Source of the DNA: an uncultured Oscillospiraceae bacterium
Lineage (GTDB): Bacteria > Bacillota > Clostridia > Oscillospirales > Oscillospiraceae
DNA length: 64,000 nt
Direction: 5' to 3'
NCBI GenBank assembly: GCA_947626345.1
Contig: CANQSF010000007.1
Coordinates: forward strand, 1 to 64,000
A model generated the notes under the pieces. It did no database searches. It was not told the DNA's origin and saw nothing but the letters and a program-made list of their open reading frames with translations. Shown one piece after another: positions 5,793 through 41,370 of the stretch (positions are counted from its first letter, which is position 1; each line of letters starts with the position of its first letter). Made by a program: the position numbers and the translations under genes.

Positions 5793-7229
5793 TCAGAACT
5801 GGAAGTACAAAAACGGGTTGTAGCTGTCCCCCACCAGGGCCATGGCCGACAGCAGGAGCAGCGCCACCGGGTGGACCACCTCCCACACGCCGTTGATCAT
5901 GTAGAAGATCTCCCCCCGCTCGCTGAGCTGCCGGAGCTTTTCCCGCAGCCATTTCCCCAGCGGGGTCACGGCCACGGCGCTCAGCGCCAGGAAGAACAGG
6001 TTATTTTTGAACAGCAGGCTCACCGAGGCGCTGGAAAAGCCGTTGTGATTCAGGCCGAACAGGCCCTTCACAGCGGTGCCCAGCAGGGACATGTCCGTGT
6101 ATTTGAAGATGATCCAGCTGAACATCACCAGGATGAGCACGCCCCCGTGGCGCAGCACCTGGGGCAGGAAGCGCTGTCCATCCTTGCCCAGTACGAACCG
6201 CTCCACCGCCAGCAGCACGCCGAAGTACAGCCCCCACAGGATGAAGTTCCAGCTGGCGCCGTGCCACATGCCGGTGAGGAACCACACCACGAACAGGTTC
6301 AGCAGCTGCCGGCCCGTGCCGCAGCGGCTGCCGCCCAGGGAGATGTACACATAGTCCCGGAAAAAGCTGCTCAGGGAGATGTGCCACCGCCGCCAGAACT
6401 CGGTGATGGACCCGGACAAATAGGGGTAGTCGAAGTTCTCCCGGTAGTGCAGCCCGCACATCAGCCCCATGCCGATGGCCATGTCCGAGTAGGCGGAGAA
6501 GTCCAGATAGATCTGCAGCGTGAACGCCGCCGCACCCAGCAGCACGCCCATGGCCGGCACCGCCGCCAGCGCCGCGGCGTCGGTCAGCAGCAGCTGATCG
6601 GCGATCACGGCGCAGCCGTTGGCCAGCACCGCCTTTTTCGCCAGGCCCACGGTGAACCGGCTGATGCCGGCGCTCACCTCCTCCGGCTTGGTCCTGCGGC
6701 GGATCAGATCCCGGTTCACGTCCTTATAGCGGACGATGGGGCCGGCGATGCACTGGTGGAAGAGGCTGGCGTACAGCAGCAGCAGCCAATACCGGCTCTG
6801 GGCCTTCACCTCGCCCCGGTACACGTCGATGACGTAGCTCATCAGCTGGAAGGTGTAAAAGGAGATGCCGATGGGCAGCACGATCTGAGGGATGACCTTG
6901 GGCACGCCGAACAGGTGCTGGAAATTGCTCAGGAAAAATCCGGTGTATTTGAAGATCCCCAGGATCAGCAGGCACAGCCCCAGGGTCACGATCAGGCATA
7001 TCTTCCGGGCCGGGGTCCCCTCCCACATCTGGATGAGCAGCGCCCCCGCCCAGCAGATCAGCACCATCCCCAGCAGGAGCAGCAGATACCGGGGGCCGGC
7101 CCAGCTGTAAAACACCAGCGAGAAGGCCAGCATCGCGATGTTCTTCGCCTTGGGTGATTTCAGGAGCAGCTGGCTCAGCAGGTTCGCCGGCAAAAACAGG
7201 AAGACGAACAGCATACTGGAAAATACCAC
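5793..7229 (-). CDS. MBOAT-family O-acyltransferase (AlgI/DltB-like)
   Basis: A 478-residue polytopic membrane protein (about 10-12 hydrophobic segments) of the membrane-bound O-acyltransferase family. The catalytic histidine lies in LTGMWHGASWNFILWG (about residues 312-327), preceded by the conserved FWRRWHISLSSFFRDYVYI segment. It transfers acyl groups across the membrane to a partner, here the DHHW protein. The start is GTG at 7229, because the product MVFSSMLFVFLFLP matches family N-termini; an internal ATG five codons later is the alternative. No strong ribosome site is visible. Confidence 0.93.
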   Translation of the reverse strand: MVFSSMLFVFLFLPANLLSQLLLKSPKAKNIAMLAFSLVFYSWAGPRYLLLLLGMVLICWAGALLIQMWEGTPARKICLIVTLGLCLLILGIFKYTGFFLSNFQHLFGVPKVIPQIVLPIGISFYTFQLMSYVIDVYRGEVKAQSRYWLLLLYASLFHQCIAGPIVRYKDVNRDLIRRRTKPEEVSAGISRFTVGLAKKAVLANGCAVIADQLLLTDAAALAAVPAMGVLLGAAAFTLQIYLDFSAYSDMAIGMGLMCGLHYRENFDYPYLSGSITEFWRRWHISLSSFFRDYVYISLGGSRCGTGRQLLNLFVVWFLTGMWHGASWNFILWGLYFGVLLAVERFVLGKDGQRFLPQVLRHGGVLILVMFSWIIFKYTDMSLLGTAVKGLFGLNHNGFSSASVSLLFKNNLFFLALSAVAVTPLGKWLREKLRQLSERGEIFYMINGVWEVVHPVALLLLSAMALVGDSYNPFLYFQF

Positions 7230-16425: not shown

Positions 16426-16956
16426 ATGCATCTGGATCGAATCACAAGCTCAATACATCCTTTTTATAAACAGGCATTAGAGTTGTATCAAGTCAGCTTT
16501 CCGTTCCACGAGCAGCGGGAGTCGGCTTCCCAGGAAGCGATATTATCCAATGATCTTTATCATTTTGACTTGATTTATGACGAAGATTCTTTTGTGGGGC
16601 TCGTCTTATACTGGGAGCAATCGGACTATATCTACATTGAGCATTTTTGTATCCAGCCTGAACTGCGAAACAGGCACTACGGCCAAAGGGCCCTTTCTCT
16701 TTTGCAGGAAAAGAGAAAAATAATAATACTAGAGATAGACCCCCCAATCGACGCAATATCTATAAGAAGAAAAGGCTTTTATGAGCGATGTGGGTTTGTT
16801 GAAAATCCATATTCCCACATTCATCCTCCCTACCACAAAGGGAATACCGGGCACGAGCTTGTTATCATGAGCAACCCCAGACTGATTTTACAGTCGGAAT
16901 ATGATTCTTTTAATAGTTTTTTGAAGAGAATCATCATGAACAATGTGTTTGCATAA
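16426..16956 (+). CDS. GNAT-family N-acetyltransferase
   Basis: A 176-residue protein with a GNAT fold: the acetyl-CoA loop is degenerate (QPELRNRHYGQRALSLLQ, about residues 80-97), followed by the beta-strand ILEIDPP and the YERCGFV motif. The acceptor is unknown. The ATG at 16426 follows GGGGGCGGG. The gene is markedly richer in A+T than its neighbours and uses codons such as ATA and TTT freely, which suggests recent acquisition. It is followed directly by a repeat cluster. Confidence 0.8.
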   Translation: MHLDRITSSIHPFYKQALELYQVSFPFHEQRESASQEAILSNDLYHFDLIYDEDSFVGLVLYWEQSDYIYIEHFCIQPELRNRHYGQRALSLLQEKRKIIILEIDPPIDAISIRRKGFYERCGFVENPYSHIHPPYHKGNTGHELVIMSNPRLILQSEYDSFNSFLKRIIMNNVFA

Positions 16957-24822: not shown

Positions 24823-25875
24823 TTATGTCCGCTCTATGAGCTCCATGAGCCCGTCCAGCAGCTCCGCCTCGGGCACCCGGGTCCGCACCACCTGGCCCTT
24901 GACGAACAGGCTCCCGAAGCCCTTGCCCCCGGCGATGCCGAAGTCCGCCTCCCGGGCCTCCCCGGGGCCGTTGACCTCGCAGCCCATCACCGCCACGGTG
25001 ATGTCCCGGTCCAAACCAGCGAGCCGCTCCTCCGCCTTTTTCGCCAGGGAGATGAGGTCGATCCTGGTCCGGCCGCAGGTGGGACAGGACACGAACCGCA
25101 CCCCGCCCTTCCGCAGCCCGCAGGCCCGCAATATGGCCAGGCCCGCCTTTACCTCCTCCGCCGGGTCGGCGGTGAGGCTCACACGGATGGTGTCGCCGAT
25201 GCCCTCCATGAGCAGCGTTCCGATGCCCACGGCGGAGTTGACGAGCCCGCCGTAGCTGGTGCCCGCCTCCGTGACGCCCACGTGCAGCGGGCAGTCGAAC
25301 CGCTCCGCCGCCAGACGATAGGCCGCCACGGTGAGGGACACGTCCGAGGCCTTCACCGACAGGGCGATGTCCCCGAAGCCCACCTCGTGCAGCGCGGCGA
25401 TCTCTCCGGCGGCGCTGGCCACCAGTGCCTCGGCGGTGGGGCCGCCGTATTTGGCCAGCACGCTTTTTTCCAGCGAGCCGGTGTTCACCCCGATGCGGAT
25501 GGGGATGCCCCGCTCCCTGCAGGCTGCGGCCACCGCCGCCACCCGCTCCTTGGAGCCGATGTTGCCGGGGTTGATGCGCACAGCGCTCACCCCCGCCTCC
25601 GCCGCCGCGATGGCCAGCCGGTGGTCGAAGTGGATGTCCGCCACCACCGGCATGGGCGCCTGGGCCATGATGGCCGGCAGGGCCGCCGCCGCGGCAGCGT
25701 CAGGCACCGCTACCCGGATGATGTCGCACCCCGCCGCCCGCAGACGGCGCATCTGCTCCAGCGTCGCCCCTGCGTCCCGGGTATCGGTGTTGCACATGGA
25801 CTGGACCGTCACGGCTGCTCCGCCGCCCACGGCCACGCCGCCCACGTCGATCCGTCTGGTCATGTCTCTTTTCAT
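24823..25875 (-). CDS. ispG: 4-hydroxy-3-methylbut-2-enyl diphosphate synthase
   Basis: A 350-residue [4Fe-4S] enzyme (GcpE) making HMBPP in the MEP isoprenoid pathway. The TIM-barrel N-terminal half has VQSMCNTDTRD and VADIHFDHRLA; the C-terminal cluster cysteines appear in the segment CGLRKGGVRFVSCPTCGRTR (about residues 258-277) with the ligand glutamate in GCEVNGPGEA. It overlaps rseP by 4 nt (ATGA), so translation is coupled. Confidence 0.97.
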   Translation of the reverse strand: MKRDMTRRIDVGGVAVGGGAAVTVQSMCNTDTRDAGATLEQMRRLRAAGCDIIRVAVPDAAAAAALPAIMAQAPMPVVADIHFDHRLAIAAAEAGVSAVRINPGNIGSKERVAAVAAACRERGIPIRIGVNTGSLEKSVLAKYGGPTAEALVASAAGEIAALHEVGFGDIALSVKASDVSLTVAAYRLAAERFDCPLHVGVTEAGTSYGGLVNSAVGIGTLLMEGIGDTIRVSLTADPAEEVKAGLAILRACGLRKGGVRFVSCPTCGRTRIDLISLAKKAEERLAGLDRDITVAVMGCEVNGPGEAREADFGIAGGKGFGSLFVKGQVVRTRVPEAELLDGLMELIERT

Positions 25876-26954
25876 CTCGTCCGAATGATCCTCGCCACGT
25901 CGTTATACAGCACGTATATCATCAGCCCCATGAGCAGCACCATCCCGGCGGTGTTCACATAGGCCTCGTACTTGGGATCGATCCGCCGGCGGAAGATCCG
26001 CTCGGCGATCCATGTCACCAGCAGGAAGAAGATCCGCCCGCCGTCCAGCGCCGGGATGGGCAGCAGGTTCATCACCGCCAGGTTCACCGCGATGAACGCC
26101 GCCAGATAGAAGATGTTCAGCAGCCCGTCCGCCACCGTGGGGGCCTGGGTGCCCACGTCCGCGATCATGTCCACGATGCCCACCACGCCGGTCATCTGGT
26201 CTATGCCCACCGCCCCGGAGATCAGATCCGTCAGCCCCAGGCGCACCATGCGCACGAAGTCCAGCGCGCAGTACCAGGTGTATTTGACCTTCGCCCACAG
26301 GCCCGACTCCGTGTTTTCAAAATAGAGCCCGTAGCGCATGACCTTCTCGCCGGTCTCCTCGTCCGTATACTCCCGCAGGGTCATGGGGTAGTCCTCCAGG
26401 ACCACCTTCTTCCCGTCCCGGATCAGCTCCAGATCCACCCGGCCGTTCCGGCTCCGGGACATATACAGGCTCACGTCGCTGGCCAGATAGGTCCGCTCGC
26501 CGTTGACACGGTAAATGGTGTCCCCTTCCAGGAGGCCGTCAGCGCCCTCATAGGGGCAGCCCTCCATGAACCGGGTCACCGTGGGAGGCGAGAAGGAGTC
26601 GATCTGGGTGTAGCACAGCGCCACCAGCACCAGCCCCAGCAGGAAGTTCATAAAGGCCCCCGCCGCCAGGATGATCAGCTTTTTCCAGGCCGCGGCGTTG
26701 GAGAAGGCCGCCGGGTCCGGCGAGTCGCCGTCCTCCCCCTCCATGGCGCAGAACCCGCCGATGGGCAGCGCCCGCAGGCTCACCTGGGTGCCGCTGGCCG
26801 TCTGCCGCTTCCACAGGGCCGGCCCCATGCCCATGGAGAATTCCAGCACCCGCACCCCGCACAGCCGGGCCGCCACGAAGTGGCCCAGCTCATGCACGCC
26901 GATGAGGACGCCGAAGATCAGGATCGCGAGAAGAATATACAAAAATGTTCCCAT
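25872..26954 (-). CDS. rseP: RIP metalloprotease RseP/RasP
   Basis: A 360-residue site-2 protease that cuts membrane-embedded substrates such as anti-sigma factors and signal-peptide remnants. The zinc motif HELGH is at residues 21-25 in the first membrane helix; a PDZ domain lies near residues 120-200, and the second metal motif NLLPIPALDGGRIFFLL is near residue 295. Four membrane helices are visible. It sits between dxr and ispG, the usual arrangement in Firmicutes. Confidence 0.96.
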   Translation of the reverse strand: MGTFLYILLAILIFGVLIGVHELGHFVAARLCGVRVLEFSMGMGPALWKRQTASGTQVSLRALPIGGFCAMEGEDGDSPDPAAFSNAAAWKKLIILAAGAFMNFLLGLVLVALCYTQIDSFSPPTVTRFMEGCPYEGADGLLEGDTIYRVNGERTYLASDVSLYMSRSRNGRVDLELIRDGKKVVLEDYPMTLREYTDEETGEKVMRYGLYFENTESGLWAKVKYTWYCALDFVRMVRLGLTDLISGAVGIDQMTGVVGIVDMIADVGTQAPTVADGLLNIFYLAAFIAVNLAVMNLLPIPALDGGRIFFLLVTWIAERIFRRRIDPKYEAYVNTAGMVLLMGLMIYVLYNDVARIIRTR

Positions 26955-26996
26955 ATCATGCCTTTCCTGTGCTCTGCTGGAAACAGTCTATGTAGA

Positions 26997-28142
26997 TCAG
27001 GGGGAAATTATCGTCTGTCCTGCCCAACGCCGCGCCTCGGCATCCGCCGCCAGGATGTCCTCCAGCGTGGGGTCCGCCGCCGCCGGCGTCCGGGCCACCG
27101 CTGCCGCCACACGGTCGTAGATGTCGTTGTAGCCGATCCTCCCCGCCAGAAACAGGGCCACCGCCGCCTCGTTGGCGGCGCTCATCACCGCGGGGGCGAC
27201 GCCGCCCCGGCGGGCACAGTCCATGGCCAGGGCCAGGCAGGGGGTCTTTTCCAGGTCCGGCTCTTCAAAGGTCAGGTCCCTCATCCTCCAAAAGTCCAGC
27301 CGCTCATAGGGCGAGACGGTCCGCTCCGACCAGGTCATGGCGTACTGGATGGGCAGGCCCATGTCCGGCACCGCCAGCTGGGCCAGCACCGTGCCGTCGA
27401 CGAGCTCCACCATGGAGTGGATCACGCTCTGGGGGTGGATCACCACCTGGATATCGTCCGGCGTCACGCCGAACAGGTGCATGGCCTCGATGAACTCCAG
27501 GCCCTTGTTCATCATGGTGGCGCTGTCCACGGAGATCTTCGCGCCCATGTTCCAGTTGGGATGGCGCACCGCCTGCTCCGGGGTGACGGCGGCGGTCTCG
27601 GCCCGGGTCCAGCCCCGGAAGGGGCCGCCAGAGCCGGTGAGCAGTATCTTGTGCAATTGCTCCCGCCGGCCCTCCAGGCACTGGAAGATGGCGGAGTGCT
27701 CCGAGTCCACGGGCACGATCTGGGCGCCCTTTTCCGCCGCCGCCTTCATGACGATGGTCCCGGCGCACACCAATGTCTCCTTGTTGGCCAGGCAGATGCG
27801 CTTTCCCGCGGCGATGGCGTCCAGGGTGGGCCGCAGGCCCACGGAGCCGGACACCGCCGTCACCACGGCCTCACAGTCCACGGTGGCGGCCCGGCGCAGG
27901 CCCTCCATCCCCTCGCCGATCTCCACGTCCAGATCCCCCACGGCGATGCGCAGCGCCGCCGCGGCCTTGGGATCATATATCGCCGCGTAGGCGGGCCGGA
28001 CGCGGCGGATCTGCTCCTCCAGCAGGCCCACGTCCCTCCGGGCGGCCAGGGCGGTCACCCGGATGCCCAGCCGCTCCGCGGCCGCCAGGCTCTGCCGACC
28101 GATGGAGCCGGTGGAGCCCAGCACGGAAATAGAATGGATCAT
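26997..28142 (-). CDS. dxr: 1-deoxy-D-xylulose 5-phosphate reductoisomerase
   Basis: A 381-residue NADPH enzyme making MEP, the committed isoprenoid step. It opens ISVLGSTGSIGRQSL (NADPH fold) and has LANKETLVCAG, the metal/substrate segment PVDSEHSAIFQCL (about residues 145-157), the phosphate-binding TGSGGPFRG and the HPNWNMGAKISVDSATMMNK loop. It follows uppS by 12 nt. In most Firmicutes cdsA lies between uppS and dxr; here it is absent. Confidence 0.97.
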   Translation of the reverse strand: MIHSISVLGSTGSIGRQSLAAAERLGIRVTALAARRDVGLLEEQIRRVRPAYAAIYDPKAAAALRIAVGDLDVEIGEGMEGLRRAATVDCEAVVTAVSGSVGLRPTLDAIAAGKRICLANKETLVCAGTIVMKAAAEKGAQIVPVDSEHSAIFQCLEGRREQLHKILLTGSGGPFRGWTRAETAAVTPEQAVRHPNWNMGAKISVDSATMMNKGLEFIEAMHLFGVTPDDIQVVIHPQSVIHSMVELVDGTVLAQLAVPDMGLPIQYAMTWSERTVSPYERLDFWRMRDLTFEEPDLEKTPCLALAMDCARRGGVAPAVMSAANEAAVALFLAGRIGYNDIYDRVAAAVARTPAAADPTLEDILAADAEARRWAGQTIISP

Positions 28143-28154
28143 GCTCTTTCCTCT

Positions 28155-29017
<863 letters not shown>

Positions 29018-29021
<4 letters not shown>

Positions 29022-29569
29022 ATGGCGAACAGCTCTTTCTCCTTGGCCTCGGTGAGTTTGTCGATGTCCTTGATGTTGTCGTCGGTGAGCTTCTGCAGCT
29101 CCTTCTCCAGATCCTTCTGGTCGTCCTCGGTGATGTCGCCGGCCTTCTGCTGCTTTTTGATCTTGTCCATGGCGTCCCGGCGGATGTTGCGCACGGCCAC
29201 CTTGGCCTCCTCGCCGTACTTGCGCACCTGCTTGGCCAGCTCCTTGCGCCGCTCCTCGGTCAGTTGGGGGAAGGCCAGACGGATGACGCGGCCGTCGTTC
29301 TGGGGATTGATGCCCAGCTCGGAGGCCTGGATGGCCTTCTCGATGCCCTTGAGCACGGAACCATCCCAGGGGGTGATCACCAGGGTGCGGGGGTCGGGAA
29401 CGGAGATGGCGGCCACCTGGTTGATGGGCGTGGCGGTGCCGTAATAGTCCACGGTGATGCCGTTGAGCACGGCGGCGTTGGCCCGCCCGGCCCGCACGGC
29501 GTCGAACTGGCCGGACAAGAATTCCTTGGCCTTGGTCATTTTTACCTCAAATTCCTTCAGCTCGCTCAT
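29018..29569 (-). CDS. frr: ribosome recycling factor
   Basis: A 183-residue factor that splits post-termination ribosomes together with EF-G. The helical N-terminus ([20 protein letters not shown]), the [19 protein letters not shown] hinge and the C-terminal helix with [20 protein letters not shown] are all present. AAAGGAGGAG precedes the ATG. A repeat cluster separates it from pyrH, its usual immediate neighbour. Confidence 0.97.
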
Positions 29570-29611
29570 GGTGTGCTCCTCCTTTGATTGAAATTATTAA
29601 CAAACTCCTCT

Positions 29612-29818
29612 TAGGCCCCCTTGTGTAAAGGGGGCTGGCTCCGGCGGCAGCCGGAGACTGAGGGATTGATTCCTAGAATGGGCTCGTTGGACGCAGCGCT
29701 CAATAGAATCAACCCCACCACCACGCTTCGCGCGGTCCCCCTCCCCTTACACAGGGGAGGCTCGAAAAGGAGCGGCTTTGCCGCGCCCACCTCCCCTTGC
29801 ACAGGGGAGGCTTTTAGT
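29612..29818 (-). repeat. modular palindromic repeat, copy B, between pyrH and frr
   Basis: Reverse orientation to copy A: it starts GGCCCCCTTGTGTAAAGGGG, continues with CTGGCTCCGG...CCGGAG and ACTGAGGGATTG, a spacer, then two CCTCCCCTT-ACACAGG-GGAGG type hairpins (29747 and 29788). Its right end runs into the pyrH stop codon at 29814. It occupies the whole 244-nt space between two genes that normally lie close together. Confidence 0.9.
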
Positions 29819-30524
29819 CCACCCGCGTGCCGATCTTCTCCCCCTTGACCACCCGGATGATGTTCTCCGGCGGGTCCAGGGCGAAGATCATGGTGGGGAT
29901 GGCGTTGTCCCGGAGCATGCAGGCGGCGGTAGAGTCGATGACCTTCAGCCCCTGGGCGAGGATCTGGTCATAGGTGATGGACGCCAGCTTTTTCGCCGTG
30001 GGGTCGGTCTTCGGGTCGGCGGTATAGACCCCGTCGATGTTCTTGGCCATCAGCAGCGCGTCCGCGCCGATCTCAGCGGCCTTCAGCGCCGCGGCGGAGT
30101 CGGTGGAGAAATAGGGGTTGCCGCTGCCCGCGGCGAACAGCACCACCCGGCCCTTTTCCAGATGCTCCATGGCCCGCAGATAAGAGTAGCTCTCCGCGAT
30201 ACGGGGCATATCGATCATGGTCATCACCCTGGCGGGCACGCCCTCCTGCCCCAGCACCTCGCACAGGGCCAGGCTGTTCATCACCGTGGCCAGCATGCCC
30301 ATCTTATCCGCCTGGGACCGCTCCATTTTGCCGCCGCCGTCCTTGGCGCCACGCCAGTAATTGCCGCCGCCGGTGACCAGGCCGATCTGCACGCCCTCCG
30401 ACGCCAGCGCGCCGATGGCCCGGGACACCCGGCGCATCACCTCAAAATCCAGTCCCCGGCCGCTCTCGCCGCCCAGGGCCTCGCCGCTGAGCTTCAGCAG
30501 CACCCGCCGGTATCCGCTGTCCAT
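29814..30524 (-). CDS. pyrH: UMP kinase
   Basis: A 236-residue hexameric kinase phosphorylating UMP for pyrimidine nucleotide synthesis. It has the amino-acid-kinase landmarks RVLLKLSGEALGG, GGGNYWRG, DKMGMLATVMNSLAL and the STDSAAALKAAEIGAD segment. The start at 30524 follows GGAGGAGG and fits the family; a longer reading to 30650 runs through the promoter. It has its own promoter, and rpsB-tsf, which usually precede pyrH, are not here. Confidence 0.97.
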   Translation of the reverse strand: MDSGYRRVLLKLSGEALGGESGRGLDFEVMRRVSRAIGALASEGVQIGLVTGGGNYWRGAKDGGGKMERSQADKMGMLATVMNSLALCEVLGQEGVPARVMTMIDMPRIAESYSYLRAMEHLEKGRVVLFAAGSGNPYFSTDSAAALKAAEIGADALLMAKNIDGVYTADPKTDPTAKKLASITYDQILAQGLKVIDSTAACMLRDNAIPTMIFALDPPENIIRVVKGEKIGTRVD

Positions 30525-30548
30525 AAACGCTCCTCCTCCACACTGTCC

Positions 30549-30577
30549 ATTGTATCGGGTAATGGTTACATTTTCAA
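30549..30577 (-). promoter_or_regulatory. sigma-A promoter of the pyrH-polC run
   Basis: Minus strand TTGAAA (30572-30577), 17 bp, TACAAT (30549-30554). The start point would be about 18 nt before the pyrH ATG, just enough for its ribosome site. Confidence 0.85.
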
Positions 30578-30673
30578 CCTCATCCGACGCCGGTCGGACG
30601 CCACCATAAATTTTATCACAGATGCCATCCGATTTCAACCGGCTTCGCATCGCCGCCGGGCTATCATCTGTCC

Positions 30674-31477
30674 ATGGAGACCGTTTATCTGGATGAGCTG
30701 TTCTGCCTGGACCTGATCATGGACTACTTCCTGCTGCTGGCCACCGCCCGGCTGTGCGCCCTGCCATACCGGCGGGGCCGGTATCTGGCGGCGGCGGCGC
30801 TGGGCGCAGCGTGGAGCGCGGCGGGACTGCTGCCTGGGATGGGCTGGCTGCTGACGCCCGCCGCCCGGCTGCTGCCGGCGGGGTTCATGACCCTGGCCGC
30901 CTTCGGCGGACAGCGGCGGCTGGGCCGGTGCTTCGCCGCGTTCCTGGGCGCATCCGCCCTGTTCGGCGGCACGGTATACGCCGCGGGACTGCTCCGGGGC
31001 GGCAGCGGACCCATGCTGCGGCTGGACATGCGGGTGCTCATCCTGGCCTTCGCCGTATGCTACGCCGCGGTGAGCCTGCTCTGCCACGGCGCGGCCCGGG
31101 CCGCCCGGCCCAGGGTGCTCACCGTGACGGTGGAGCGGGCCGGGCGCACGGTGACCCTGCGGGCGCTGGAGGACACGGGCAACTCCCTCGTGGACCCCAT
31201 CACCGGCCGGGCGGCCTTCGTGGCAGAGGCGAAGGCCCTGGCGGGCCTGTTCCCGGCGGCGGAGCGGCGCTGGCTGAAGGAGGAGGCGGCGGAGGCGGCG
31301 CTCCATCTGCCCGGGGCCCGGCTCATCCCCTACGCGGGGGTGGAGGGCCGGAGCGGGCTGCTGCTGGCATTCCTCCCGGACCGGGTGACGGTGGACGGCC
31401 GGGAACGGGACGGTCTGCTGGCCGCCGTATCCCCCGGCGCCATCGGGGCCGGGGAGAGCTATGACGCCATACTGTGA
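30674..31477 (+). CDS. spoIIGA: sporulation sigma-E processing peptidase SpoIIGA
   Basis: A 267-residue membrane-anchored aspartic protease that matures pro-sigma-E in the mother cell after septation. Five or so hydrophobic segments fill residues 10-140, followed by a cytosolic protease domain with the catalytic Asp167 in [12 protein letters not shown]. It lies 14 nt ahead of sigE, as in Bacillus spoIIG. The ATG at 30674 lacks a visible ribosome site, and TATCAT (30662-30667) sits only 6 nt upstream, so the transcript may be almost leaderless. Confidence 0.9.
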
Positions 31478-32446: not shown

Positions 32447-35400
32447 TTATTCACCCAGCTCGCTGCGGACCTCGAACTCCTTCTTCTGCCGCCGCTTGGC
32501 GTCGTAGGTGTAGTACACCGCCACGGCCAGCGCGCACAGCATGAGCAGGAAGTGCAGGATGCAGCAGTTCTGGATATCGTCCATCAGGCCCAGAGGCGTG
32601 GCGTTATCCTCGATGTTCTCCGTCTCGCTCAGGTCATAGTCCGGGCCCTGATCCACGGGCAGGTCAGCCATCGGCACGGCGTCGTCGCCGATCTCCACGG
32701 TGGCGGGACCGTCCTCAGCGGGCGCGGGGCCGTCGTCCGGGGTCTCAGGGGCGTCGGGGGTATCCGGGGTATCGGGGGTGTCCGGCGTATCCGGCGTATC
32801 GGGGATGACCGGATCCACAGGCGCGGGCGGGGTAGGATCGTCCGGGTCTACCGGCGGCTCGGGCACATCCGGGTCATCCGGGTCTACGGGGGGATCAGGC
32901 TGATCCGGGTCCTCCGGGTCTACCGGGGGATCGGGCTCGTCGGGGTCCTCCGGGTCTACCGGGGGCTCTTCGGGCTCGATCTCAGGCGGGATCAATCTGA
33001 AGTTCGCGGTGAAGGTGTAGGTCTGGCCACCCACGGCCTCGAAGCTCTGCTCCAGCGCCGCAACATTGTTCTCGATCTCAATGTCACTGTCGTTGGTCCA
33101 GCCGTTGAACAGGTGCGTGCCGGCGTTCGGCACAGCGGTAGCGGTAGCGGTCACAGTGCCGCTCTCAATGGGCTTGCCGTTCTCGTCCACGAGGTTGATG
33201 ACAGCTTCTCCGATCACATTGACCGAGCCGCCCTCGCCAGCAACGTACTGGATGAACGCCTGGTACTTGTCGGGGGTGCCGTCGCCGGGCTTCTCGGGGT
33301 CATTGCCGCCCTTGGTATCCTCGGCGAAGTGCGCGGTGAAGGTGTAGGTCTCGCCGCCCTTGACGGTGAAGTCCTGGCTCAGGGTCGCCTCATAGGATCT
33401 CTCGATCTCTTCGCCATCCCAGTAATCGAACGCATAGCCATCGGTCGTCGCAGTAGCGGTGGAGTTCAGCTCAATGTTCTCCATGCCGTCTTCGGGTATA
33501 TCCTTGACGGTCTGGAACTTCTCGCTCACGCTGCCGTTTTCATCGGCCTCGTAATAGATGACCGCTTCGTACTTGTCGGGGGTCTCGTCAGGCTGCTTGC
33601 CGTCATCACCGCCGCCGATCTCGTCCTTATCGAAGTGCGCGGTGAAGGTGTAGGTCTCGCCGCCCTTGGCCTGGAAGCTCTGGGTCAGTTCTGCCTTGTC
33701 AGCGTTACCATCAGTCAGCTGCTCGCCTTCCCAGTAATCGAACGCATAGCCATCATTGGCATTGGCAGTGGCGGAAGCGGTCACATTGCCGCTGGTCGCA
33801 TTGCCGGGGATGGTCTCGACCTTAACGACCTCGGTCTCTCCACCGATCGTGCCGCCCTCGTCAGCCACATACTTGATGGTGACCTGGTACTTGTCGGGGG
33901 TGCCATCGCCGTTCTCGCCGCCGATGTTGTCCTTGGCATACTTGACCTTCACCGTCGTGTTCTCGAACGTCTGGCCCTTGATCTCGGCCTCGTCGTCGAG
34001 GACATAGTGGTCGCCGTTAACAGTCAGCTCCGAGGCAGCCGTGTGGTTGTACTCGCCCTTCTCGTTGATAACGGCCGTGTGCTCCTCCAAAGCCGCGTCA
34101 GGAGCATCCTCGTCCACGTACTGGACAGTGACCGTAGCCTCGACCGGCTTGATCGTCAGGTGGCCGTCGTTATCCACCACCACAGTCGCGGTGTAGTTGC
34201 CCTTCTCGTTGCCGGTGACAGTGAAGTCATCAGCGGTCAGGCCCATCGGATAGGTGTTGACATTGGTGCCCTTAGCCTCGTTCACGAAGTGCTCGTTCAG
34301 CTTCACGTCCAGGCCGCCTTCAAGATCACCAACGACCTCGAAGTAAGGCGCATCCGCGCTCTGCTCGCTGCCGTTGTAAGTCTTCTCCTGCTCCGTGCCC
34401 TTCACATGGATCTCCACAGCCTTCTGAGTGATCGTCAGCTTGCCGTCGCTATCCACCACCACAGTCGCGGTGTAGTTGCCCTTCTCGTTGCCGGTGACAG
34501 TGAAGTCATCAGCGGTCAGGCCCATCGGATAGGTGTTGACATCGGTGCCCTTGGCCTCGTTCACGAAGTGCTCGTTCAGCTCCACGCCCAGGCCGCCTTC
34601 AGGCTCACCAACGACGGTGAAGTAAGGCTCTTCCGCGCTCTGCTCGCTGCCGTTGTAGACCTTAGACTGCTCCGTGCCCTTCACATGGATCTCCACAGCC
34701 TTCGGGGCGATCGTGAACGGATCCGTTGCGCTGACCTCAGGCAGGTCCTTGGTAGCCTTCCACGTGGCTTTGACCGTGTAGCTGCCGGCGTCTGTGGGCT
34801 CGCCAGGCAACTGGTTGCCCTCTTCATCGAAGTAGGTAAACGTCGGATCGCTATAGCCTTCGCTTCCTGCGCCTGTGACAGTGGCCTCGGGCCCGCTATG
34901 CTCGTCGCCGTAGGTCCAGTCCGCCTGGCTCACGGTGGCGGTGTAAGATTCGGCCTCGGCCTTCTTGATGGTCAGCTTACCGGTGATGGTCACCTCATAG
35001 TTGGCGGTCACGTCCTTGTCGCCGTTGGTGATTGTCGCTTCGCCCACCACATTCTCGTACTCACCCACAGCCGTGCCGCTGATGGTGGCCTTCAGGCTCA
35101 TCTCATCATCGTAGACCAGATTGCCCTCAGTGATATTCTCCCCGGTGATCTCCATGGTGATTTCCTCACCGGTGTAGGTCTTGGTCTCGGTCTTGTTGAT
35201 GGTGATGGCCTTCTTCGCGACGGTGAACACAGCCGTTGCCTCCAGGTCAGGCAGGTTGTCGTCGCCCTTCCACGTGGCCTTGACCGTATAGCTGCCGGCG
35301 TACTTGGGCTCGCCTTCCACCTTCTCGCCATTCGCATCGAGGTAGGTCAGCTCCGGAGCGTCATAGTTCTTGCTTCCTTTGCCTTTGACCTCAGGCACGG

Positions 35401-38400
35401 CAGCAGGCTTGTTCTCGCCATAGGTCCAGCCATCCTGGCTCACGCTGGCGATGAAAGAATTGGCCTCAGCCTTGGTGATCTCCAGCTCGCCCTGCTCGTA
35501 CGCAAACGTTACATCGTAGTTCTTTACCTCGCCGACGATCTCAGCCTTGATATCAGTCGGGTACTTTTTGACTTCAGTCCCCTCAACCTTATTGCCGGTC
35601 ACAGTCAGCTCTACGCCATACTGCTCTTTAAGCTCCGCAGCCGTGAGCTTTTTACCATCCACACTGATGGTGTACTCGCTGATCGTGTGCGGCTGGCCGT
35701 CATAGGTCTCAGACTTGGTCTCGCCCTCGATGGTGATGGTCAACGGAGCCTTCTCGATGGTCAGCTTGCCATTCTCGGTCTTCACCGTGAACTGCCCGGT
35801 CACGTCGTGACCAGCGGCGTCCGTCACAACAGCCTCGCCGGTGAAGGTCGTGGGATACTCGCCCGCATTGGTGCCGCTGGCGCTGGCGCTCAGGCCTTCC
35901 ACCGTATAGGTGTTGTCCACGACCTCAAAGGTCAGGGTCTCGAAGCCGCTCACGCTGTGATTCTGGCCGTCATAGGTCACGGTATCGCTCTTGGCCTTGA
36001 CGGTGATCTCGTACTTCTCCGTCCGGTCAGTGACCGTCAGTTTGCCCAACACCTGCTTGATATCGTAGTTGTCAGGATTAACGCTATCATCCAGCTCGTA
36101 GGTGAACTTGTTGTCGCTGGTGCCGACATAGAGCTGGCTGCCGGTCACATGGTAGGTCACACGCGCGGCATCGCCATTGACAAAGCCGCTTGCCGCGATC
36201 ATCTTCTTGGTCAGCGGGGTGCCGTCATATTCCTTGCTATCAGAGGCGGAGGTCAGCGTCACGGGACGCTTGTTGATGGTCAGCTTGCCGTCGTTCACCA
36301 CGAAGATCACATCGTAGTTCTTGCGGGCGGCCTCATCCGCCAGCTGGAAGTACTCCGCCTTCAGGACCGTAGTCCCCTCCGCAGGATAAGTGCCGGCGTC
36401 AGTGCCCTTGATCTTGGCCTGCTTCTCGTACCCTTCCATCAGTACCACATTCAGGCTGCCGATCTCGGCCTTGAACGCATCGGAAGCGCCATCGGGATAA
36501 GTCCGATCGGTGATCTCGAAGCCCTCAGCGTACTGCTCTTTGCCGTTATAAACGACTTCGTTGTCATTGCCCGTGATGGTGATGGTGATCGCAGCCGGGT
36601 CGATCTTCAGCCAGCCGTCCTTAACTTCCACGGTGACTTCGCCGAAGGAGTCACTCTTGGCCGTGAATTTGCCCTCCAGGTTCATCGGATACTTTTCGTC
36701 TCCGGTGTTGGCTTCAATGCCGGAAGCCTTGGCAGCTTCCTGGCTGGGGCCATCAAGCGTCAGCCAGGTAGCATCTTCCAGGCTGTAAGTCTTATCTTCC
36801 TGGCCCTCCGTATGCACCTTCACGGTGACAGTGTAGCCGGTGACCTCCTGCAGCTCGCCGTTGTAAGTCTTGGTGTCCGCATTGCCCGTGATCTCGACGG
36901 TCACGGTCTGCTTGCTGTCGGGGATGTTGTCGCTGTTGCTATCCTCGGAGAACTTCGCGGTGAAGGTGTAGGTCTGGCCGCCCTGGGCGGTGAAGCTCTG
37001 GCTCAGGCTCGCCTCGTTGGGATTGCCGATCGCGACATCGCTGGTCCAGCCATCGAACGCAAAGCCGGTATTGGCCTTGGCAGTGGCCTTAGCAGTCACA
37101 TTGCCGCTGGTCGCATGGTCCGCGAAGGTGATGACCTCATTCTCCTTCTCGGTGACAGTGCCCATGGTCTCGTCAGCACTCTCGTACTGGATGAACACCT
37201 GGTACTTGTCGGGAGTCTTGTCTTCGTTGTTGTCCAGGGTGTACTTGGCTTCGACCTTCAGGTTGCGACGGTAGCCATCACCCGTGGCGTTTTCGGGCAT
37301 TTCGACCAGAACATAGTGGTGGCCATCGGTGCCATCCAGTTCACTCGGGATGTCCTTGGTCACATCCCAGGACCAGGGGCTCGTGGACAGATGCCAGTCA
37401 ACTACAGGATCAACTCTGAACTCTTTTTTGTTTTGAATTTCAACGTTGTTTTCGTTCGTGTAGGTGATGACACCATCGAACCCGAACGGATCCCAAATGG
37501 CCGTGAAGGACAGGTCACCCGTGGAGCCCTTCGAGATGGTAACCTCCTTCTCCGCCTCGCCTGCAGCGTGAGCTTTGGCCGTCGTGCCGCTGCCCATCTC
37601 CCAGCCCTTGAACTCATAGCCGTCCCGCTTGGGGTTCGTCAGATTGAAACTCTCAGTGTCCTTCGTATAGGTCGTGCGGTTCGGGTTCGTCCCGCCCTCG
37701 AAGTCGGAACCTTCCACGTTATTATAAGTAATGGTATACTCCGCCGTAACGAAGCGGAAGTCCACGAAAACGTTCTTCTCCGTCGCGGTGATCGTCACTT
37801 TCTGCGTGAACGACTCGCCTTTAACGGGCTCATAGCCCTTCTGCAGCACCTTGTTGACGATATCCTGGTCCGCGGTGACGGTGAAGGTGCCGCTGGGGGC
37901 AGGCTTCGGCTCCTCGCTCTCGATCACTTTTTCACAGCTCATATAGCGGACGGTATACGTCACGTCCTCGAGCTGGATGTAATAGAAGGTGATCACATTG
38001 CCGTTGGCCTTCAGCTCCAGCTCCTGGCTGACGTCGCCCTTCAGGACATAGCCTTCCACATTCACGGCCTGCGCGGTGACCTTGCTGCCGATCTCGCCCT
38101 CGCCGGTCTTTTCAATCGCCACGGGCTCGCGGGTCGCCTCGTCCAGGTACTTCACGGTGTACTCGACGAACTGGCTGTTCACTTCCCACTTGGCGTAGAC
38201 CCAAACGTCCTTGGTCAGGGGCTGGCCGATATCGTACGGCATTGTGCAAGTCTTATCGGAGTACCAGCCGGCGAAGACCTTGTTCTCCTGCTCGGCAGGC
38301 GTATTGCCCTTGGGAACGGTATTATAAGGGACCTTTTCCCAATCGAATACCTGATCACTATCGCTGTCCATGTAGATGATGGTGCGGTCGGGCAGCTTCC

Positions 38401-40837
38401 AGTCGGCGTAGAGGACCAGGCCCTTGGGCATCTTGTAGTCGCCCTTGTACTCCTCGGTGTGGCCCGGGTCGATGAACCAGCCCAGGAACGTGGCATCGCT
38501 TACGGGACTCTCGGGGTTAGCCAGATAGCCGCTGATATCTGCGTTCAGCTTGACCTGGTGGCTTGACAACAGCTTGCCCTGCCAGCCGTACAGCGTCAGA
38601 GGATAGGTCTTGGCGGTGTAGTAGAAGTCGTTGGTCCCCTGCCACGAGCCGTTCTTGTCCGGTCCATTGGGAAACGCATTGCTTTTATACCGCTCATAGC
38701 CGTCGATCTGGAACCACTCTTCGTCCACCGTCGGTTTAGTTCTATAGTCCCCATCCCTTTTTTGGAACGCGCTTGTCGTCACTGTGGTGTATTCTGAGAA
38801 TTTCTTTCCATTGTACTCCTTAGTGCCATTGTCGTCTTCCACATAGTAGTGGAGGGTCTGAGTAACCTCCTTATCGTCCCCCTCCCCATCGTTCTCGTCA
38901 TCATAGTAATAGTATGTGGCATCCTTCAGCATCTTATCCTGGAGATTCGTCGTCGTAGGGCGACCCAACACATTGGGATTCTCTGTCCAGGAATATCTGC
39001 CCGCCACTTCGTTCCACTGGTCCTTGATGCTGGCGCCGTATCTCGCGGTGATGGTCTTCATGTTACAAGAGGCATCGTGATGATGACCATAATAACTAAA
39101 ATAACTCTCAGTCTTCCCGCAGAAGTAGAACGTCATGGTGTAGGTCTTGCGGGTGAAGTACACGCTCAGCACGCCGCTGCCGTCCGGCGCGACCTGGATC
39201 TCGTCGGCCTTTTCAAAGACGAAATTCGTTCTGTCAAAACCTGCGGGGTAAGTGTTATACCGACTATTGGAATCGAAGGTGACCTTAGAATCCGCCCGGG
39301 CCTCCTTCTCCACGCTGCCGACAAAGGAATAGTTGTCGTCATCCGGGTTCTGCACCAGGTAGACCACCGTATATTTCACGTTCTGGGCCTTCCAATGGGC
39401 GTAAAGGGTGACGTTGTCGTTCAGGGTGACAAAAGTCCTTCTATCCCCGCCTTCCGGACTAGGGTACCAACCCAGGAAACTATAGCCCACGCGGGTCGGC
39501 TCAGCGTCTTTCACGTTGACAGTCGTCTCATAGTAGTCGCCCTTAGGGGAAACATAGGAGCCGCCCTGGGAGTCGAAGATCACATAGAGAGTGTCCGGAG
39601 TATAGGTGATGGTGACCACCGTGCCGCTCTCCGCAAGCATCTTGTTATCGATGTGGGAGGCCTGATAGCGCTCCATTTTCAGCGCCGTTGCCTGGGTCAG
39701 CTCGCCCACCACGCCGGTCTGCTTGGTAGTATCGAGAAGTTTGCCATTGTCCGAGCGCACATGCCGTACGGTGTACTCCGCCGTCGGGGCCTTCAGGATC
39801 AGCTCGACGGTGACGTCCGCCGTCACATCGCCGGTGATCACGCCGTCCGCGTATGTAAAGCCTTCCGTGATGCTTTCCTGCTCATACTTGCTGTAGTCGC
39901 CCTTCAGCTCATAGTGCAGCTTGCCGTCCTCGACCTGCACGGTCTCGTTGACCACCAGCACATCGCCGGCGATGACGTTCACGGTCACATTGAAGGTCTC
40001 CACCTTCTCGATCTGAACGTGATCGATCTGGCCCTGATAGACGTCGTTCTCGATGCCGGGGCCGGCCTGCTGGCCGCCGCCCACGCCCACGACCCGGTAG
40101 CCGGCGGAGATCCGGTACTGGATGGTAGCCTGGGCAAACGCGCCGGTGTTGCTGACGATCACGTCCGCCGCCGTCAGCGCGGGGATCGAGCCGTCCACTT
40201 CCATGCCCTCCTTGACCAGGGCGTAAGCGCTCAGGCTCAGTCCCTCCGCCAGGGCCGCGCCGTCCACGGTCACGACCTGCTGCTGGCTGAAGGTGCCGGC
40301 GTCGCTGTTGAGCACGTGGTCGATGACCAGGAGCACCTTCTCGGGCAGCTCGGGCTCGGCGGGCTTCTGCTCGGGCTCGGCGCTGGGCTCCGCGGGCTCC
40401 TCGGCCGGCTCGGCAGGGGCTTCGGTGGCCTCCGGGGCGGGCTGCATATTATTCACATCGCCCTCGGGCTCCTCAGCGGGCTCGTCGACGATCTCACCGG
40501 AGGGCTCGCCGCCGGTCTCGTCGGAGACCGCCTCGTCCTCGCCGGGCTGCTCAGCCGGCCCGTCGGAAGACGCCGCGTCCGCGTCGGGGTCGCTCTCGTC
40601 CGCCGCGGGCTCATTATTAGTATCAGGGATCACCAGGTCGGTCGAACCGCCTACTACCCCCCCCCCCTCGGAGGAGGACTTCTCCGTGGGCTGCTCGCTC
40701 ACCACGGGCGCGGTCACGACAGGCGCAGTCTCTTCCTCACCAGCCGCCGCAATGGCGGAAATGTCCGCCATACCCATGGCGTTCATGGCGAAGAGGAAAA
40801 CCAGTGCCAGCGCAACAAGCCGTTTCCAAGTCTTCAT
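32447..40837 (-). CDS. giant surface protein with InlB-B, MBG and MucBP-like repeats
   Basis: A 2796-residue secreted, membrane-anchored protein. Signal peptide about residues 1-31; Pro/Glu/Ala-rich acidic stretch to about 165; several InlB-B-type (Listeria-Bacteroides) repeats, e.g. GYSFLGWYPSPEGG (about 450), FLGWFIDPG (about 785), FAGWYSDKTC (about 855) and YEFKGWEMGSG (about 1070); many MBG-like beta domains (about 1320-2230, recurrent YNG/YDG and KLTI endings); a MucBP-like unit (about 2233-2300); InlB-tail units joined by Asp/Gly linkers such as GDGTPDKYQV (to about 2610); a Pro/Asp repeat stalk (about 2616-2729); and a C-terminal membrane helix (about 2758-2777) with tail KRRQKKEFEVRSELGE. 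There is no LPxTG motif. Likely an adhesin; ligand unknown. An 11-G tract lies at codons 57-61. Confidence 0.9.
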   Translation of the reverse strand: MKTWKRLVALALVFLFAMNAMGMADISAIAAAGEEETAPVVTAPVVSEQPTEKSSSEGGGVVGGSTDLVIPDTNNEPAADESDPDADAASSDGPAEQPGEDEAVSDETGGEPSGEIVDEPAEEPEGDVNNMQPAPEATEAPAEPAEEPAEPSAEPEQKPAEPELPEKVLLVIDHVLNSDAGTFSQQQVVTVDGAALAEGLSLSAYALVKEGMEVDGSIPALTAADVIVSNTGAFAQATIQYRISAGYRVVGVGGGQQAGPGIENDVYQGQIDHVQIEKVETFNVTVNVIAGDVLVVNETVQVEDGKLHYELKGDYSKYEQESITEGFTYADGVITGDVTADVTVELILKAPTAEYTVRHVRSDNGKLLDTTKQTGVVGELTQATALKMERYQASHIDNKMLAESGTVVTITYTPDTLYVIFDSQGGSYVSPKGDYYETTVNVKDAEPTRVGYSFLGWYPSPEGGDRRTFVTLNDNVTLYAHWKAQNVKYTVVYLVQNPDDDNYSFVGSVEKEARADSKVTFDSNSRYNTYPAGFDRTNFVFEKADEIQVAPDGSGVLSVYFTRKTYTMTFYFCGKTESYFSYYGHHHDASCNMKTITARYGASIKDQWNEVAGRYSWTENPNVLGRPTTTNLQDKMLKDATYYYYDDENDGEGDDKEVTQTLHYYVEDDNGTKEYNGKKFSEYTTVTTSAFQKRDGDYRTKPTVDEEWFQIDGYERYKSNAFPNGPDKNGSWQGTNDFYYTAKTYPLTLYGWQGKLLSSHQVKLNADISGYLANPESPVSDATFLGWFIDPGHTEEYKGDYKMPKGLVLYADWKLPDRTIIYMDSDSDQVFDWEKVPYNTVPKGNTPAEQENKVFAGWYSDKTCTMPYDIGQPLTKDVWVYAKWEVNSQFVEYTVKYLDEATREPVAIEKTGEGEIGSKVTAQAVNVEGYVLKGDVSQELELKANGNVITFYYIQLEDVTYTVRYMSCEKVIESEEPKPAPSGTFTVTADQDIVNKVLQKGYEPVKGESFTQKVTITATEKNVFVDFRFVTAEYTITYNNVEGSDFEGGTNPNRTTYTKDTESFNLTNPKRDGYEFKGWEMGSGTTAKAHAAGEAEKEVTISKGSTGDLSFTAIWDPFGFDGVITYTNENNVEIQNKKEFRVDPVVDWHLSTSPWSWDVTKDIPSELDGTDGHHYVLVEMPENATGDGYRRNLKVEAKYTLDNNEDKTPDKYQVFIQYESADETMGTVTEKENEVITFADHATSGNVTAKATAKANTGFAFDGWTSDVAIGNPNEASLSQSFTAQGGQTYTFTAKFSEDSNSDNIPDSKQTVTVEITGNADTKTYNGELQEVTGYTVTVKVHTEGQEDKTYSLEDATWLTLDGPSQEAAKASGIEANTGDEKYPMNLEGKFTAKSDSFGEVTVEVKDGWLKIDPAAITITITGNDNEVVYNGKEQYAEGFEITDRTYPDGASDAFKAEIGSLNVVLMEGYEKQAKIKGTDAGTYPAEGTTVLKAEYFQLADEAARKNYDVIFVVNDGKLTINKRPVTLTSASDSKEYDGTPLTKKMIAASGFVNGDAARVTYHVTGSQLYVGTSDNKFTYELDDSVNPDNYDIKQVLGKLTVTDRTEKYEITVKAKSDTVTYDGQNHSVSGFETLTFEVVDNTYTVEGLSASASGTNAGEYPTTFTGEAVVTDAAGHDVTGQFTVKTENGKLTIEKAPLTITIEGETKSETYDGQPHTISEYTISVDGKKLTAAELKEQYGVELTVTGNKVEGTEVKKYPTDIKAEIVGEVKNYDVTFAYEQGELEITKAEANSFIASVSQDGWTYGENKPAAVPEVKGKGSKNYDAPELTYLDANGEKVEGEPKYAGSYTVKATWKGDDNLPDLEATAVFTVAKKAITINKTETKTYTGEEITMEITGENITEGNLVYDDEMSLKATISGTAVGEYENVVGEATITNGDKDVTANYEVTITGKLTIKKAEAESYTATVSQADWTYGDEHSGPEATVTGAGSEGYSDPTFTYFDEEGNQLPGEPTDAGSYTVKATWKATKDLPEVSATDPFTIAPKAVEIHVKGTEQSKVYNGSEQSAEEPYFTVVGEPEGGLGVELNEHFVNEAKGTDVNTYPMGLTADDFTVTGNEKGNYTATVVVDSDGKLTITQKAVEIHVKGTEQEKTYNGSEQSADAPYFEVVGDLEGGLDVKLNEHFVNEAKGTNVNTYPMGLTADDFTVTGNEKGNYTATVVVDNDGHLTIKPVEATVTVQYVDEDAPDAALEEHTAVINEKGEYNHTAASELTVNGDHYVLDDEAEIKGQTFENTTVKVKYAKDNIGGENGDGTPDKYQVTIKYVADEGGTIGGETEVVKVETIPGNATSGNVTASATANANDGYAFDYWEGEQLTDGNADKAELTQSFQAKGGETYTFTAHFDKDEIGGGDDGKQPDETPDKYEAVIYYEADENGSVSEKFQTVKDIPEDGMENIELNSTATATTDGYAFDYWDGEEIERSYEATLSQDFTVKGGETYTFTAHFAEDTKGGNDPEKPGDGTPDKYQAFIQYVAGEGGSVNVIGEAVINLVDENGKPIESGTVTATATAVPNAGTHLFNGWTNDSDIEIENNVAALEQSFEAVGGQTYTFTANFRLIPPEIEPEEPPVDPEDPDEPDPPVDPEDPDQPDPPVDPDDPDVPEPPVDPDDPTPPAPVDPVIPDTPDTPDTPDTPDTPDAPETPDDGPAPAEDGPATVEIGDDAVPMADLPVDQGPDYDLSETENIEDNATPLGLMDDIQNCCILHFLLMLCALAVAVYYTYDAKRRQKKEFEVRSELGE
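34150..34715 (-). repeat. two near-identical 279-bp units inside the giant gene
   Basis: Two adjacent MBG-like units, each 93 codons, are nearly identical at DNA level; for example the stretch TATCCACCACCACAGTCGCG occurs at 34171 and again at 34450. Most differences are single bases. Looser protein-level repeats of the same type extend to about 36900. Confidence 0.9.
40657..40667 (-). repeat. 11-base poly-G tract near the 5' end of the giant gene
   Basis: Eleven C on the plus strand read as eleven G on the coding strand, from the last base of codon 57 (GAG) into codon 61 (GTA). It is the only homopolymer of this length noticed in the window and lies in the low-complexity region right after the signal peptide. 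With ten G the next codon is TAG; with twelve G the frame meets TGA about twelve codons on. Confidence 0.95.
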
Positions 40838-41370
40838 TGTTGCATCTCCTTTACTTTCCCGGGGCCCCGTGAGGCCTAATTTATATAATGTATGTCGTTC
40901 AGCTTCGCGGCAAATGCGCCGCCCTATCGCTTTTTCTATAACTTAAGACCGTTTCGCGGATAAAAACAGCTCAAAAATCCGGTCGAAAAATGGATTTGTA
41001 ACCAAATTGTAACCACTTTTTGGACCGTTTCGAGGCCCATCCATAAAATTCGACGTTATTCAGTGCGTTATGCCATAAATATTCACTGGTTTTTCCCTGC
41101 TCCGAGGGGATGTTTTATGCGAATAAGTATGTAAAATCGATGAATAATCATCCATTTTGGCCCCTGCGGGGCCTTTTCCCGGGTCCGCAGCTTATTTCTC
41201 CCCTCCCGGGGAAGGCGCTGGGCCCCCTTTGTAATATTTATACCATATACTCAAACCGAATGCAACTGTTTTGTATGAAATGCCCACTACAGAGCATGAA
41301 CGACCATTTGTTCTATCGGCGCGCCCCGGGGCATAGACTGTGGCAAGTCAAAGTCAGTGGGGTGGTATGC
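40838..41370. other. 533-bp intergenic region between the giant gene and spoIIID
   Basis: AT-rich divergent regulatory region. For the giant gene there is a good GTAAAGGAG site, and a possible minus-strand promoter with a TTATATAA-rich -10 area near 40885-40895. A small hairpin with T run (GGCCCC-TGC-GGGGCC, 41159-41173, then TTTT) could stop plus-strand transcription. The motif GACCGTTTCG occurs twice (about 40948 and 41023). CATAGACT (41333-41340) resembles a sigma-E -10 element upstream of spoIIID, but its -35 is weak. No convincing gene is seen. Confidence 0.55.

Follow-up and report, generated by a model that had tools for sequence, protein, structure and literature searches.

A poly-G tract as a likely phase-variation switch of a gene for a giant, probably surface-anchored protein in an uncultured Oscillospiraceae bacterium

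The window analysed in this work is a stretch of 64,000 nucleotides from an uncultured Oscillospiraceae bacterium (positions 1 to 64,000 of contig CANQSF010000007.1, assembly GCA_947626345.1). A run of eleven G (G11) at positions 40657-40667 lies near the start of a gene for a protein of 2,796 residues and very probably serves as an on/off (phase-variation) switch of this gene. Switches of this slippage type are most familiar from pathogens. In the proposed mechanism, loss or gain of a single G through slippage during replication would leave a product of only 60 or 71 residues, and a further slip would restore the full-length product, making the change reversible. The full product would be displayed on the cell surface, and the truncated product would be inert. 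The switch would govern a very large surface protein, and a product of the OFF length is already present in a public database.

Reading frames at the tract

The giant open reading frame (ORF), 40837..32447 on the minus strand, is translated into 2,796 residues, and its ATG is preceded at a distance of 8 nucleotides by a Shine-Dalgarno-like AAGGAG (40846..40851, minus strand). The tract (40657..40667), read as G on the coding minus strand, begins 170 nucleotides past the first base of the ATG and occupies codons 57-61; as is typical of contingency loci, a repeat whose unit is not a multiple of three thereby lies early in a reading frame. By frame arithmetic, the frame is open at G11 and likewise at G8 and G14. 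At G10, translation stops instantly at the first of two successive TAG codons immediately 3' of the tract (40651..40656, minus strand), with a product of 60 residues, while at G12 it stops at a TGA (40623..40625, minus strand) 31 nucleotides downstream of the run, with a product of 71 residues; the products predicted for G7 and G13 have 59 and 61 residues. These calculations reproduce the sequence-only reading of this DNA, which had correctly placed eleven coding-strand G at codons 57-61, counted 2796 open codons, and predicted TAG directly after the tract upon loss of one G, TGA further on upon gain of one, and some 60-75 residues left after either slip. Alternative in-frame starts 3' of the run occur at codons 69, 128 and 131, and products from them would have no signal peptide.

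Length alleles among public proteins

Public proteins with the same start were sought with two queries: residues 1-500, which returned the protein P0003, and the first 60 residues, for which a match length range of about 33-105 residues suits truncated products. P0003 has 3,019 residues, and its residues 1-133 are the same as those of the window protein (132/132 aligned) except that one Gly is missing at the run; read from the protein, this implies G8 if the codons are unchanged. The 60-residue query returned a single cluster, P0038, of exactly 60 residues with 100% identity to the start of the window protein. It comprises three members on five contigs, the longest of 72,629 bases, and is taken to come from elsewhere because the contig of the window (90,198 bases) continues beyond residue 60. 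Since a product of 60 residues fits G10 alone among the neighbouring lengths (59 for G7, 61 for G13), P0038 implies the OFF length and would be the product of a length-10 allele. The tract is thus represented by lengths 8 (ON), 10 (OFF) and 11 (ON), of which 11 is seen in DNA and 8 and 10 are implied by the proteins alone, so that both ON and OFF length alleles, as expected of a contingency locus, are on record in this mixed form. Slippage would have generated the alleles of lengths 8 and 10. The slipped-strand phase switch put forward in the sequence-only reading gains support from the 60-residue cluster of the G10 length and from the full-length allele one Gly shorter.

Relation to known switches

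The closest likeness was found in the sortase-pilus switch of Bifidobacterium breve UCC2003 (bbr_1889a/b and bbr_0113a/b), a Gram-positive gut commensal, where a G tract also separates a signal part from a giant body (PMC9187656). In the portion of that report drawn on here, the tract of bbr_1889 lies between an ORF of 65 residues with a Sec signal and a surface body of 2,674 residues, slippage of the tract was measured, and the frame decides display (PMC9187656). Because its layout matches this pilus switch, the tract of the window is a further case of a known switch design; the genus-wide repertoire of runs and the flank bias described below are less expected. The two systems differ in that the B. 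breve switch is part of a pilin operon that includes a sortase gene and encodes an LPXTG motif (PMC9187656), whereas the window locus encodes a giant repeat protein in which no LPXTG was seen, with housekeeping genes downstream. Further differences on the window side are that two alleles diverge strongly in the middle and that the genus has many more tracts.

Alternatively, RNA polymerase or the ribosome could slip on the G run, so that every allele would yield some full-length protein and the tract would act as a dial instead of a switch. Slippage of transcription on homopolymers is an established phenomenon, although the passage concerned names A or T runs (PMC3711429). Such a dial appears unlikely here, since the length-10 frame runs straight into two TAG codons and since, in the cited part of the B. 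breve report, transcription dropped past the stop of the first ORF and pilus-like structures were seen in in-frame strains, in contrast with the parent (PMC9187656).

Within the open-licence papers listed as matches, the literature on phase variation in Firmicutes, Clostridia and gut bacteria contained no such poly-G system in Clostridia; for Clostridioides, the part of a 2025 review considered here describes switches of the inversion type (PMC11868660).

Run-length spectrum and other long runs in the same genome

In the window, G or C runs of length six occur 22 times, those of lengths 7-10 are absent, and there is one of length 11. The genome from which the window was taken (G000, 2.59 megabases) has 38 G runs of length 7, none of length 8, three of length 9, five of length 10 and one of length 11, the counts from G8 to G11 being derived from the complete set of 25 overlapping matches. 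By our own judgement, the gap between G7 and G9 is not the tail of a chance distribution.

The other long runs of this genome lie in or near genes of several kinds, assigned by eye where no Pfam name is given. One is a G10 at C20:22936-22945 (L076 / L200), which separates a signal part of 49 residues from a body of 2,176 codons in another frame; this body terminates in a hydrophobic stretch and a basic tail. The locus would represent another giant surface gene, in the OFF state in the assembly. That a signal-peptide ORF and its giant body are divided by a G10 in the genome of the window itself speaks for the phase switch of the sequence-only reading. Three runs are located on contig C34: a G9 at position 488, with a 12-residue start on one side and the frame of an acyltransferase-3 domain (PF01757) on the other; a G10 at 6765, in an asparagine-synthase gene (PF00733) that is in frame across the run; and a G10 at 16902, close to where a glycosyltransferase gene (PF00535) ends, with more glycosyltransferase genes and WavE genes at this locus. 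A G9 at C20:2651-2659 (L074) lies within the 19-nucleotide spacer of a promoter-like sequence, TTGACA-N10-G9-TAATAT, upstream of the start of a secreted protein, and is likely a transcriptional tract. Homopolymers between promoter boxes are also found in the promoter-spacer tracts of Neisseria. In what is described for Helicobacter pylori sabA, a homopolymer similarly tunes an adhesin or sits between promoter boxes; unlike the spacer tracts of sabA and Neisseria, the tract of the window lies in a coding region. The remaining runs are a G9 ahead of the GTG of an esterase-like gene (C18:41624), a G10 inside a short ORF resembling a double-glycine leader (C10:312), and an intergenic G10 (C8:1156).

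Poly-G runs and their flanks across the genus

G runs of at least nine were found in 27 of the 35 genomes of the genus. The detailed count, 239 runs of at least nine with 1 to 45 per genome, covers 23 of the 35, namely those that remain after exclusion of G001-G003, G000 and the eight genomes in which no such run was found. From these 239 runs, 135 were carried forward together with nine from G000 and four from G002/G003 (148 in total; G032, with 45 runs, contributed only one), and removal of one run near an N stretch and of 24 near-duplicates left 123 non-redundant runs. A script trimmed runs longer than 12 to 12 and sorted the runs and frames; kinds of protein were sorted partly by eye. As background for the flanks, 770 runs of G5-6 from the same loci were used.

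The assemblies of G001-G003, each of 230-340 contigs, show many long ragged G runs (one of at least 29), some of them beside N stretches or contig ends (e.g. L060, L032), and these may be sequencing artefacts.

The long runs share flanking bases. C stands directly before 96 of the 123 runs, compared with 337/770 in the background (p 7e-13), T directly after 107/123 compared with 186/770 (p 1.7e-41), and an A/T triplet at positions -9..-7 in 52/123 compared with 47/770 (p 1.6e-23), with p-values that assume independent runs although the genomes of the genus are related. TA follows the run in 76 of the 123. Among 46 coding sites, T after the run was found in 18/18, 14/15 and 12/13 cases by phase, and since it occurs in all three phases it is a feature at the DNA level. 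The string C-G9-TA occurs 73 times in the 35 genus genomes and its mirror image never; the corresponding numbers are 21 and 3 in 150 genomes of the family, and 17 and 6 in 249 genomes of the phylum, two of the C-G9-TA strings belonging to G000 in each of the latter two sets. In G000 itself, T follows eight of the nine long runs and only 4 of the 38 G7 runs. The tract of the window (GTCCTCCTCCGA-G11-TAGTA) matches only the TA part of the signature.

Two other explanations of the flanks were considered and set aside. TA as the beginning of immediate stop codons is a weak explanation, TAA or TAG coming next in just 35/123 runs. A promoter origin is contradicted by the fact that the promoter-spacer rule applies to 8/123 runs, and that C before and T after are kept in the 46 coding sites whichever phase the run has.

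On this basis we tentatively propose, as a possibility that we hold to be somewhat below even, that poly-G runs form a phasome throughout the genomes of the genus, with a DNA signature as its basis (C before and TA after G9-11, in many cases also an A/T triplet 7-9 bases upstream). The signature, which is found in all reading frames and likewise in promoters, would point to a factor, or to a slippage site under selection, that determines where runs vary and in what way even though mismatch repair works, and giant surface proteins would add exchange of the body as a second layer. As many as 45 runs were counted in one genome, so that surface, glycan and small leader-peptide genes could vary in many combinations; this would matter for escape from phages, for targeting by antibodies and for the persistence of strains.

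In Campylobacter jejuni, poly-G tracts likewise belong to surface and glycan genes. The section of the report used here gives 29 G/C tracts of at least seven for C. jejuni, with lengths in colonies mostly 8-11 and most tracts in reading frames, and states that flanking sequence was without influence on slippage (PMC4965091). Unlike that phasome, the tracts of the present genus have common flank bases; if functional, the flank signature makes a determinant of slippage sites testable, as against the Campylobacter statement of no flank effect (PMC4965091).

Surface-like genes in which the run stands behind a signal or linker part include L122 and L197 (in frame) and the lipoprotein-like L185, as assigned by eye. 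In addition, L151, L175, L112, L101, L123 and L069 carry poly-G in small genes whose N-termini resemble double-glycine leaders and, by eye, precursors of ribosomally synthesized and post-translationally modified peptides, e.g. with LDDEALEKV ahead of the run.

Weighing the proposed switch at the window locus

Several results weigh against a switch at this locus. Dinucleotide shuffling of the window produced G11 in 36 of 100 shuffles (mean 0.55), and under this null the run by itself is not improbable. No cluster of a 71-residue (G12) product appeared in the protein search with the first 60 residues, and the P0038 genes could in principle be cut by contig ends within the tract, which is unlikely for five contigs. 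In the genus, 22 of the 31 mid-gene runs that are flanked on either side by unambiguous long ORFs are in frame in their assemblies; the other nine are out of frame, which counts in favour of switching. Among 15 ortholog-like pairs of runs between species, for which a run of at least six was needed on both sides and loss was not counted, 12 have equal length and three differ by one base; one pair (G9 in G020, G10 in G024) has flanks 96-100% identical. MutS1 and MutL are intact in G000, whereas Campylobacter is not known to have intact MutS1/MutL. Across the genus, MutS1 is above the cut-off in 32/35 genomes and MutL in 34/35, and loss of mismatch repair was rejected as the cause of the runs given the intact mutS1 and mutL of G000.

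The tract lengths taken from assemblies could also be consensus errors. In the extreme form of this objection there is one fixed true length, and 8, 10 and 11 are miscalls of the G run; Illumina sequencing through a G tract is indeed described as error-prone ("G's end" reads; PMC9187656). We regard this as improbable, for G11 keeps the frame open for 2,796 codons and P0003 differs by a whole codon. Moreover, the runs of 9-11 in G000 are set apart from G7 by the missing G8, and the long runs of the genus have flank bases that are missing from runs of 5-6 and that miscalls would not create.

Of the 23 other genus genomes with a match, 10 supplied 13 homologue loci, and a run of at least 8 was present in none of these; 10 of these 13 show the 5' end of the gene, and two have G7 within the first ~170 codons. 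Because the homologues of other species have no tract of at least 8, the switch at the window locus is young or local. As to the comparison of homologous loci suggested in the sequence-only reading, other lengths are implied by the public proteins of the same start, and the 13 loci of other species contain no run of at least 8. That homologues manage without such a run would suit a further alternative, in which the run is a mere glycine-rich linker under codon drift and OFF alleles are ordinary pseudogenes. This is the least probable of the alternatives considered and in our view very doubtful, as no other G or C run of the window exceeds six and as the OFF cluster P0038 retains 60 residues identical to those of the window; because of this identity, the OFF difference is a fresh one.

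In one related gene (L095, G027:C7, 4437-4505), the signal part and the body are in different frames, with the break beside a 21-nucleotide tandem repeat with indels and no G run of at least seven. When the nine genes flanking the giant gene were compared with 12 loci that surround or contain homologues in five genomes of the genus, no match was found, while the positive controls (the window itself and a C-terminal piece) did match.

A diverged middle between near-identical ends

The 5' module of the window protein P0001 (residues 1-133; 40439..40837, minus strand) equals that of P0003 save for the one Gly at the tract, and the 3' module (residues 2624-2796; 32447..32968, minus strand), comprising a Pro-rich stalk and an anchor, is near-identical in the two (172/173 aligned residues, with one 3-residue indel). 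The stretch between these end modules has 2,068 aligned columns at 36% identity and 1,065 columns with gaps, and PF06458 domains are present in P0003 and absent from P0001 according to Pfam. A C-terminal query of 107 residues matched only P0003 and one 60% relative. From this one allele pair, it is likely that the displayed body is exchanged while the switch end and the anchor end stay constant. Given the strong divergence of the middle and the near-identity of the two ends, one locus may vary both whether a protein is displayed and what is displayed.

Architecture and surroundings of the giant gene

The 2,796-residue protein consists, in order, of a predicted signal peptide (residues 1-32; 40742..40837, minus strand), the tract-bearing acidic linker, Listeria-Bacteroides repeats, the Pro-rich stalk and a C-terminal hydrophobic anchor; signal peptide, stalk and anchor were assigned by eye. 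The repeats match PF09479 (List_Bact_rpt) with 1.1e-25 and 90 bits, compared with a gathering score of 27, and TIGR02543 also matches; the best Flg_new / List_Bact_rpt repeat covers residues 419-481 (39395..39583, minus strand). In its repeat domains the body resembles InlB B-repeat / Listeria-Bacteroides repeat surface proteins (PF09479), and it is distinguished from the repeat homologues checked by its G tract. Inspection by eye of the last 100 residues found no LPXTG, the nearest motifs being ATPLG and LPVDQ, and a sortase-anchored LPXTG protein was rejected on this ground. The C terminus has, by eye, a hydrophobic stretch followed by a basic tail, and the protein is likely anchored at the cell surface.

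Downstream of the giant gene come two ORFs with no Pfam match and then, at 25872-31306 on the minus strand, a housekeeping cluster composed of an amino-acid-kinase-family (pyrH-like) gene, frr, uppS, dxr and a gene for an M50 protease.

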